This document shows positions 52,029-53,839 of a DNA stretch of 64,000 nucleotides, piece by piece; the stretch's first letter is position 1, and every line of letters starts with the position of its first letter. Source of the DNA: Candidatus Avelusimicrobium intestinale (GTDB lineage: Bacteria > Elusimicrobiota > Elusimicrobia > Elusimicrobiales > Elusimicrobiaceae). The stretch covers positions 62,001 to 126,000 of the forward strand of contig CACWYV010000004.1 of NCBI GenBank assembly GCA_902765225.1. Reading direction: 5' to 3'. The notes below the pieces were generated by a model that was not told the origin of the DNA, did no database searches, and saw nothing but the letters and a program-made list of their open reading frames with translations. Both the position numbers and the translations under genes were made by a program.

Positions 52029-52331
52029 TTATTTTCCCGGTAAAATCCAGCCGTTTTTCACACCACCTGCTATAAGGGGAAGGCAAGGAAGTGGCGGAGT
52101 AAATGCTTCTCCAAAATATTCGTTGTAGAGATAAATACTGACTTGCAGATAGGGCTCCAGGCAAGGAGTGGCCAGTTGACCGCCTATGCTATCTATCGGA
52201 GCTGCCAATTGGGCGGCCCGGAAAAAGATAAAATTTTCTAAAAATAATTTTTTTCTATTCAAGAGAAACATGGCAAAAAAGAGCGAGTAAAGCAAGAAGG
52301 CCCCTCTTAACAAAATCCAGTCGGGCCGCAA
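52029..52331 (-). CDS. doubtful 100-residue membrane ORF
   Basis: This frame uses a TTG start and contains one hydrophobic helix (GAFLLYSLFFAMFLL). No Shine-Dalgarno, no family and no homologous neighbour is seen. The rest is Pro/Leu-rich near the end (TPPLPCLPLIAGG). Kept only because it is the sole long frame in a 690-bp stretch. A stem GGGAG / CTCCC at about 52001-52027 lies just beyond its stop. Confidence 0.25.
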   Translation of the reverse strand: MRPDWILLRGAFLLYSLFFAMFLLNRKKLFLENFIFFRAAQLAAPIDSIGGQLATPCLEPYLQVSIYLYNEYFGEAFTPPLPCLPLIAGGVKNGWILPGK

Positions 52332-52431
52332 AGTTAATCCCGCACGCCGATATCGTGTATGAATAATCTAGGCCTCCTTGCGTATTAACTTTGCTAACCC
52401 AACCGGCCTTTTATTTGCTACAATAAAACTA

Positions 52432-52600
52432 CATAGTTCCTGGCAGAATTATGCAGTTTTGCGCATAACGAAGCACGCCTCACCGCTGGCGCGGCGATTG
52501 CCGTTGTTGTACGACTTCTCCGTTTGAGATGTCCTGTTGTGAAGGATATTTCAAATGCGCTGGCAAGATGAAAAATAAGAAGCCGCCTTATTTTTCACAA
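52432..52600 (+). other. gene-free stretch with hairpins, possible small RNA
   Basis: No frame is convincing here. TACAAT (52419-52424) is a possible -10. TTATGC / GCATAA forms a hairpin near 52455-52474, and an 11-bp stem TGAAAAATAAG / CTTATTTTTCA (about 52568-52597) ends the stretch and could act as a weak terminator. I could not match it to a known RNA. Confidence 0.3.
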
Positions 52601-52601
52601 T

Positions 52602-52627
52602 GTTAGTATAGTAAGTATTGTTAGTAT
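52602..52627 (+). repeat. three iterated 9-bp repeats, possible operators
   Basis: GTTAGTAT, GTAAGTAT and GTTAGTAT begin at 52602, 52611 and 52620, exactly 9 bp apart. They lie just upstream of a possible -35 TTGTCA (52628-52633) and -10 TATTTT (52652-52657) of the regulator gene. Such arrays often bind an autoregulator. Confidence 0.5.
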
Positions 52628-52661
52628 TTGTCAAGTACTTTTTTAAAAATGTATTTTCCTT

Positions 52662-53330
52662 ATGGAAACGACGATAAATAGATTTGAAAAACAATTAGAA
52701 AAGTGGAATCAGGGCGTTTTGCGCGGTGCACAGGCCAAGTTAGCAAAATGCTTGCGGGTTTCCACAGCCACTGTAGCTCTGTGGACTACCGGCCAACGTC
52801 ATCCGTCAAAAGGGTATTTGGCTCAGATGGCCCGGCTTTTTCATTTGGAAATTGCTCAAGTGGAACGTCTATTCCGTCCGTTTCCGACTTCCGTCGTTGA
52901 ACCTTCTTTCCCGGTGAAACAACCGTTTATGTTGCGGGATGCTCCGGGAGATGGGGTAGAATATGGCCCTTCTCTCAGGACCGTGTCCTTGCCGGTATTT
53001 ACCCATGTGCCGGTTTCCTATCCGTATTATACCCTCGGTGAAACAAAAGGTTGGTGGACTGTACCGCAAACGGCGGTCCGGAAAGCCCGGTTTTTATTTG
53101 CCCTTCCCGGAAAGAACGATCCCGATCGGTTGCTTTTTATTGAACCGTCTTCTACGTGGAGGGCAGACCGGGTGATGCTCGGGAAGAAAGGTTCCACGTA
53201 TAAACTGGTTCGGGTACGACGGGAACAAGGAAAAATTATTTTGCAAACAACACCGGGCAAGAGGATTGCTTTATCCGAAATATGTCCAGTGGGAATTGTG
53301 GTACGCCAATTGACGGATATTTCTTTTTGA
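52662..53330 (+). CDS. helix-turn-helix regulator with S24-like C-terminal domain
   Basis: Residues about 20-70 form a Cro/XRE-like HTH: LRGAQAKLAKCLRVSTATVALWTTGQRHPSKGYL, with the recognition helix around VSTATVALW. After a linker, residues 120-215 look like a LexA/CI-type (S24 peptidase) beta domain (FLFALPGKNDPDRLLFIEPS, ADRVMLGKKGSTYKLVRVRR). The catalytic Ser that would lead MxPT or GDSM is not evident, so it may not self-cleave. Such proteins are phage-repressor or stress-type regulators; no phage genes are near. The ATG sits very close to the possible -10. 222 residues. Confidence 0.8.
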   Translation: METTINRFEKQLEKWNQGVLRGAQAKLAKCLRVSTATVALWTTGQRHPSKGYLAQMARLFHLEIAQVERLFRPFPTSVVEPSFPVKQPFMLRDAPGDGVEYGPSLRTVSLPVFTHVPVSYPYYTLGETKGWWTVPQTAVRKARFLFALPGKNDPDRLLFIEPSSTWRADRVMLGKKGSTYKLVRVRREQGKIILQTTPGKRIALSEICPVGIVVRQLTDISF

Positions 53331-53337
53331 TACCCCC

Positions 53338-53365
53338 TTGACTTACGCCGAAAAATCCCTATACT
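53338..53365 (+). promoter_or_regulatory. strong promoter of the structured RNA
   Basis: TTGACT (53338-53343), a 16-nt spacer and TATACT (53360-53365). The expected start, about 53372, coincides with the 5' end of the pairing described for the RNA. Confidence 0.7.
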
Positions 53366-53372
53366 ATGAATA

Positions 53373-53696
53373 ACCCCGTAACACCGTACAGAAAAAAGCC
53401 GGGAAGAACCGGCAGGCCGCTGTGTGCGGCTGTTGTGTTCGGTGTCTCGGTAACTGTCTTGGGTGGTGAATGAAGCCACGGGCCGATCGGTGCGGAGGCT
53501 GTATTTGCAGGCGGGACAGAAAACAAAAATCGGCTGCTCTTAGGCGGTACAGCAGGACAGGATGGATGCGGTTTCTTGCTCACGAGCTTCAAGCCCGTTG
53601 TTTGAGGACAGCGGGAGTACTTGGAGATATGGGCCGGAGCACCCAACTTCAGGCGGTATGCGGCACGGCGCGGTTTTTGACTGTACGAAACGGGGT
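53373..53696 (+). ncRNA. unidentified structured non-coding RNA, about 324 nt
   Basis: The ends pair: ACCCCGT (53373-53379) and CGTACAG (53385-53391) match CTGTACG (53681-53687) and ACGGGGT (53690-53696), giving 14 bp around a small internal loop. Inside are further stems: GCCGG/CCGGC (about 53398-53413), GGCCGC/GCGGCT (about 53416-53432), a GCTGCT/AGCAG hairpin, and CCCGTTGT/ACAGCGGG (about 53615-53636). The pairing starts exactly where the strong promoter should begin transcription. No Shine-Dalgarno or plausible coding frame is present. RNase P, tmRNA, SRP and 6S core sequences were looked for and not found. Confidence 0.6.
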
Positions 53697-53794
53697 ACAT
53701 GCTAAGAGAGGGGTTTTTTGCACGTTGCGTGCGTAATGACTGCCTCCAATGCAGCCCTAGGCTTTGCCGGGGGGATGTATGTTATACTACCTAC

Positions 53795-53829
53795 GATAAC
53801 CACGGACGCGGGTCCGTGGTTATCCTTTT
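53795..53829 (+). terminator. strong terminator
   Basis: A perfect 13-bp stem GATAACCACGGAC (53795-53807) / GTCCGTGGTTATC (53812-53824) is followed by CTTTTG. It stops plus-strand transcription from the structured RNA; it lies just beyond the convergent dut stop and may act there too. Confidence 0.75.
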
Positions 53830-53839
53830 GTTGGTAAGA

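Follow-up and report, generated by a model that had tools for sequence, protein, structure and literature searches.

A new structured RNA family of gut Elusimicrobiaceae with a five- to six-codon reading frame at its terminator

What is made from the strongly promoted stretch at 53338-53829 of the window, that is, of the whole 64,000 nucleotides of Candidatus Avelusimicrobium intestinale DNA analysed here? A first-pass annotation had proposed a structured RNA of about 324 nt that starts at about 53372, is closed by a 14-bp pairing with 53681-53696, is followed by a perfect 13-bp terminator at 53795 and lacks any coding frame that has a ribosome-binding site. Either a new large non-coding RNA (ncRNA) or a divergent known one was envisaged, and an Infernal search of Rfam and covariation among homologues were named among the ways to decide. 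The promoter and start hold: a -35 box TTGACT (53338-53343) and a -10 box TATACT (53360-53365) place the start at ~53372/53373, and all 63 homologous loci share this promoter, its boxes always exactly 16 bp apart. The terminator stem (53795-53824, then CTTTTG) is confirmed in the sequence, and both halves of the closing pairing, P1 (53373-53379 with 53690-53696) and P1b (53385-53391 with 53681-53687), are recovered in the minimum-energy fold. The length needs revision, as 53696 only closes the folded domain and a conserved 3' tail extends the RNA, which most likely reaches the terminator at about 53830; the predicted transcript is ~455 nt in this species and ~300-415 nt in relatives. The absence of a coding frame does not hold either, since GGGGGG precedes a six-codon open reading frame (ORF) in the tail and a comparable mini-ORF is present at every one of the 63 loci.

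Table 1. Features of the locus, in coordinates of the window.
Feature	Position	Strand	Basis
Second structured transcript (RNA2), conserved; apparently a long leader	52200..52598	-	Cross-clade sequence conservation; 3' end approximate
Divergent, almost invariant promoter TTGACAAATACTAACAATACTTACTATACT, predicted to drive RNA2 leftwards	52605..52634	-	Conserved in every clade
Regulator gene (222 aa): HTH, with a diverged LexA/CI-like S24 domain at the C-terminus	52662..53330	+	Directly upstream of the RNA, 62/63 loci
RNA promoter, sigma70-type, TTGACT-16-TATACT	53338..53365	+	Sequence; 16-bp spacing the same in 63/63 loci
Predicted full ncRNA	53372..53830	+	Promoter, terminator, homologues in 63 genomes
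P1 and P1b, 5' strands (53373-53379, 53385-53391)	53373..53391	+	Fold; compensatory changes across clades
P2 hairpin, varies between clades	53398..53451	+	Fold; per-clade consensus folds
P3 arm	53454..53518	+	Fold; alignment fold
P4 long arm, most conserved part	53523..53680	+	Covariation on 46 sequences
P1b and P1, 3' strands	53681..53696	+	Fold; covariation
Mini-ORF ATG TTA TAC TAC CTA CGA TAA (MLYYLR, stop)	53779..53799	+	5-6-codon ORF here in 63/63 loci
Intrinsic terminator: 13-bp stem, GCGG loop, CTTTTG	53795..53830	+	Sequence; overlaps mini-ORF stop; juxtaposition kept

The homologues delimit the family. BLAST searches of 100 related genomes located the core in eight genomes of the same genus, with two more weak matches confined to the terminator, and the aligned homologues have promoter, core and 3' end in common. 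A first covariance model of the P4 arm, built from nine sequences, retrieved 46 genomes of the genus with one copy each, and a second model, based on these 46 sequences, retrieved 52 of the 66 genus genomes (one per species; gut and rumen Elusimicrobiaceae). In 12 further genus genomes a profile search identified the regulator gene that lies upstream of the RNA, and 11 of these carry the identical promoter, again with a 16-bp spacer, and the RNA downstream. The RNA is thereby found in 63 of 66 genomes (52 by covariance model and 11 by synteny), as a single copy in each. One genome (G040, locus L097) retains the regulator and has lost the RNA together with its promoter, a natural loss, and in two others, with an estimated completeness of 83-89%, neither regulator gene nor RNA was detected. 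Among 275 genomes from the rest of the phylum the covariance model matched nothing, and at a relaxed E=1 it matched none of 24 genomes from other genera of Elusimicrobiaceae. A pattern scan over GTDB genomes returned Elusimicrobia/Elusimicrobiales metagenome-assembled genomes (MAGs), further MAGs and isolated matches in unrelated genera, the last of which we take for chance matches. Across the genome sequences searched, the RNA is restricted to one genus of gut Elusimicrobiaceae, at one copy per genome.

The folded domain is markedly more stable than its composition predicts: the minimum free energy of 53372-53696 is -138.8, compared with -117.5 +/- 5.2 in shuffled sequences (z -4.1; 0/100 shuffles as good). 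Covariation is strongest in P4, which carries a TTCAC[AG]AGC ... GATATGG internal loop and an apical hairpin. In the 46-sequence alignment, which was fitted to the covariance model and is hence biased towards it, 46 of 52 P4 pairs have changed on both sides, a number reached in 0/500 shuffles; 92.1% of P4 cells are paired against 74.0% after shuffling, and covariation scores 0.529, compared with 0.211 in shuffles and 0.07-0.11 in slid structures. These slid controls and separate MAFFT/RNAalifold folds agree with the P4 model, and, at the level of comparative sequence analysis, covariation proves the arm. When the complete domain was folded clade by clade, the consensus structures contained 87-130 pairs, of which 26-62 had changed on both sides in each of clades I, II, IIb, III and IV; clade IIc, with five close relatives, had just 6. 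Outside P4 the sequence turns over fast while the structure is kept. In nearly every clade, the 5' end of the RNA pairs with a segment that directly precedes the ribosome-binding site, and the sequences involved differ (UAUCCCC/GGGGAUA, ACGCUU/AGGCGU, CCCAAG/CUUGGG and CCUUAGU/ACUAAGG). The mean P1 stem score is 16.8 for cognate partners, 13.0 for partners from other clades and 11.7 for shuffles; by the same simple test, P1 is not clear in some members of clade IIb.

Comparison with Rfam 15 (4227 families) by cmscan gave nothing at gathering score over the RNA in the window, and relaxed E-values of up to 10 gave nothing credible in this stretch and no match in 22 homologous loci. RNase P RNA (RF00010) has a full-length match elsewhere, on contig C6 of genome G000 (E=1e-71), as does tmRNA (RF00023) on contig C2 (E=2.6e-56). 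Because covariation is strong, the RNA is genus-wide and single-copy, no Rfam family matches and these two RNAs are encoded at other sites, the comparative evidence identifies a new structured RNA family, and the choice left by the first-pass annotation falls on its first alternative.

At the other end of the transcript, the mini-ORF is joined to the terminator. In the window, GGGGGG is followed by 4 nt (ATGT) and by the ATG at 53779, with ~80 extra nt between P1 and this ATG, and the frame enters the terminator at 53795. All 63 loci have an ATG, 4 or 5 further codons and a stop between P1 and the terminator; those of G051 and G030 were assigned by hand, the automatic pick having missed or misread both. 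A comparable ORF occurs in 1.3% of dinucleotide shuffles of the same stretches, a large contrast, from a test devised after the ORF had been seen. Shine–Dalgarno (SD) strength varies: clade III has a AAGGAAGG-like sequence, clades I and II have a weak GAGAG, and the SD of clade IV lies partly within P1. The encoded peptides are always 5 or 6 residues long and otherwise variable: there are 37 different ones (for example MEESTR, MNECT, MNKPVK, MEKAIS, MKKAK and MRIEK), with no conserved core among them. What is conserved is the position of the stop, which is at most a few nucleotides away from the base of the terminator stem and usually inside that base. All three stop codons occur; their second and third bases form pairs with the 3' arm of the terminator, which changes in step (TGA with CT 25, TAG with TC 21, TAA with TT 9), the stop always being preserved. 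Since stop codon and terminator arm covary and the stop is always retained, stem and stop are both under selection.

Immediately upstream, a co-directional regulator gene accompanies the RNA at 62 of 63 loci, a count made up of 50 of the 52 covariance-model loci, a contig-edge case showing the end of the gene and the 11 synteny loci. The exception, G060 (L056), has RNA, promoter and minigene without the upstream gene, and the RNA can thus exist without the regulator. The window copy gives only a weak, sub-threshold Pfam HTH_3 match and no S24 match, and it aligns along its full length with its relatives; in clade IV, the protein matches Peptidase_S24 at E=1e-12, with a Ser-Lys dyad (GDSM ... 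IKRI, the Lys lying downstream). In an alignment of the regulator proteins, the HTH part is almost invariant and the remainder diverges. The S24 catalytic motif occurs in one clade only (for example in G036, G058, G114 and G027) and has been lost elsewhere, with the gene kept. The domain order is that of the LexA and phage CI family (HTH plus Peptidase_S24), but the window copy and most relatives examined are without the S24 motif and the partner is an RNA rather than phage genes; the protein may be a LexA/CI-like one turning into a non-cleaving regulator. A phage origin was rejected, the sole viral contig with a relative of the regulator having 29% identity. Second, more distant HTH/S24 regulators occur in ten genomes (G113, G029, G115, G010, G116, G005, G007, G049, G051 and G042), and the two of these copies that were inspected (L112 and L113) have no RNA promoter downstream. 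The spacer of the RNA promoter itself contains a degenerate dyad, in which symmetric T-A/A-T swaps compensate for one another across relatives; by this symmetry argument alone, the dyad may be an operator.

On the opposite strand, upstream of the regulator gene, lies a second promoter, TTGACAAATRCTAACAATACTTACTATACTAAC, which holds ~9-nt repeats, ATACTAAC/ATACTTAC. Its motif was considered as the operator of a larger regulon and rejected, since there is a single site in the genome. The promoter would drive RNA2, a hairpin-rich transcript and apparently a long leader, whose elements include CGGAG...CTCCG, a GCATAATTCTGCCAGGAACTATGT hairpin and a GGGTTAGCAAAGTTAA...TTAACTTTGC stem. RNA2 has no Rfam match. 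What follows it varies by clade between a small ORF and a transporter gene, and clade II has an ORF for a membrane peptide of ~35 aa there, with its SD at the end of the stem.

Downstream of the RNA, the gene content changes from clade to clade and includes dksA, msbA, a pilin, a PLP-protein, a GTPase and dut (names read from translations, except for dut, which was assigned by Pfam). The downstream gene is often on the opposite strand or convergent, as in the window, and no co-directional one is conserved across clades. Because of this variation in identity and orientation, we regard the RNA as an independent unit that is not a cis leader and that would act in trans.

How, then, might it work? 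The closest known parallel to its 3' end is mccA, a gene of 7 codons that can be translated repeatedly without the ribosome leaving and at which ribosome binding induces termination; repeated translation without ribosome release is possible for ORFs of 2-8 codons (PMC6495379). At all 63 loci an ORF within this range, of 5-6 codons, stands right before the terminator hairpin, and because of this analogy we read the minigene as a ribosome handle. Our preferred reading, to which we give a probability of about 0.4, is that the RNA works in trans and uses its minigene to dock on ribosomes, its timing being set by the neighbouring regulator. The minigene would be translated and hold the ribosome on the RNA; a ribosome at the mini-ORF stop would have to open the terminator stem, and next to the mRNA exit of that ribosome would sit the folded domain, which P1 closes ~10-14 nt ahead of the AUG. 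Such an arrangement could serve to anchor, stabilise or deliver a structured RNA on ribosomes, for sequestration or for signalling of the state of translation, and the regulator probably sets when the RNA is expressed, through the promoter dyad. Translation of the minigene, docking and control by the regulator are what we infer, docking by analogy with mccA. Counting against this reading are the uneven SD strength across clades and the absence of a conserved peptide. We put forward only tentatively the fuller picture of a throw-away 5-6-codon minigene as a ribosome-loading handle, a domesticated LexA/CI-type control and, with RNA2, an unprecedented switch of two RNAs and one regulator.

The same linkage of regulator and minigene at 62/63 loci would also fit a peptide signal, in which the fold is a long leader or sensor governing production of a formyl-peptide of 5-6 residues, for which the adjacent S24-type regulator serves as receptor, with a logic like that of arbitrium or a minigene peptide. 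The SD is covered by P1 or lies right at its end, which could let folding gate translation, and the C-terminal domain of the regulator and the peptides both diverge beside a near-invariant HTH. That co-divergence is, however, also predicted by shared descent alone; the peptides diverge freely around no common core, the neighbourhood has no conserved genes for export or import, and we consider this explanation unlikely. It is likewise doubtful that the RNA is a base-pairing antisense small RNA (sRNA) acting in trans, its mini-ORF only coupling translation to termination and stabilising the 3' end. We found no conserved unpaired seed stretch, and the rapid turnover of sequence outside P4, with structure kept, speaks against such a mode of action, even though the RNA has its own promoter, its own terminator and a trans arrangement, and ribosome-induced termination at a minigene is known from mccA (PMC6495379).

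Descent from a housekeeping RNA (SRP RNA, 6S RNA, RNase P RNA or tmRNA) is very improbable. A single copy per genome and a strong promoter are what such an RNA would have, and the models for 6S RNA (RF00013) and for small (RF00169) and large (RF01854) SRP RNA match nothing in the RNA's own genome, the small SRP model matching nothing in any of the 66 genus genomes; the SRP and 6S RNAs of this genome are either very divergent or lost. Against this, RNase P RNA and tmRNA sit elsewhere, the fold is multi-branched, unlike the single long hairpin with a central bubble of 6S RNA, the GGAA-loop motif of SRP helix 8 was not seen by eye in the RNA (RNA1) or in RNA2, and the universal mini-ORF fits neither. 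A cis attenuator or riboswitch-like leader, in which the mini-ORF is a leader peptide controlling the terminator, is scarcely credible: a stop in the base of the terminator is the expected look of such an attenuator, but the downstream gene differs by clade and is often on the opposite strand.

How new is this combination? With mccA (PMC6495379) the RNA shares a very short ORF followed by a terminator hairpin on a short monocistronic transcript, but mccA lacks a folded domain of ~300 nt, makes a peptide that is itself the product and has the processing genes mccB-E behind it. The peptides of the present family are not conserved, no processing genes follow, and no peptide-modifying or export genes of the mccA kind are adjacent, the downstream genes varying by clade. 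OLE, ROOL and GOLLD (PMC12286853) are likewise large, intricate and lineage-restricted RNAs from comparative genomics, one of them from the rumen, but the RNA matches none of them in sequence or structure (Rfam negative) and has a conserved mini-ORF and an HTH/S24 neighbour. The family is thus unlike the classes found: a closed folded domain, a minigene, a stop inside the terminator and a LexA/CI-like neighbour form a new combination, and it is in the combination that the novelty lies, the tail alone resembling mccA. The dual-function sRNAs SgrS/SgrT, RNAIII/hld and SR1 encode peptides of ~25-45 residues. They too combine an ORF with a structured or regulatory portion on one RNA, whereas here the ORF is always of 5-6 codons, is fused to the terminator and encodes no conserved peptide. 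A literature search, which left most subscription journals outside, found nothing on ncRNAs of this bacterial group, and a prior description is possible.

Time and again, large structured RNAs of bacteria have proved to act as ribozymes or riboswitches or as partners of large machines. The present one is fixed throughout a genus, and the coevolution of its minigene stop with its terminator provides an anatomical clue to a mechanism that is directly testable. A minigene that yields a signal peptide would rank with the shortest known genes; if it is a ribosome handle, it would represent a new way of attaching an RNA to the translation machinery.
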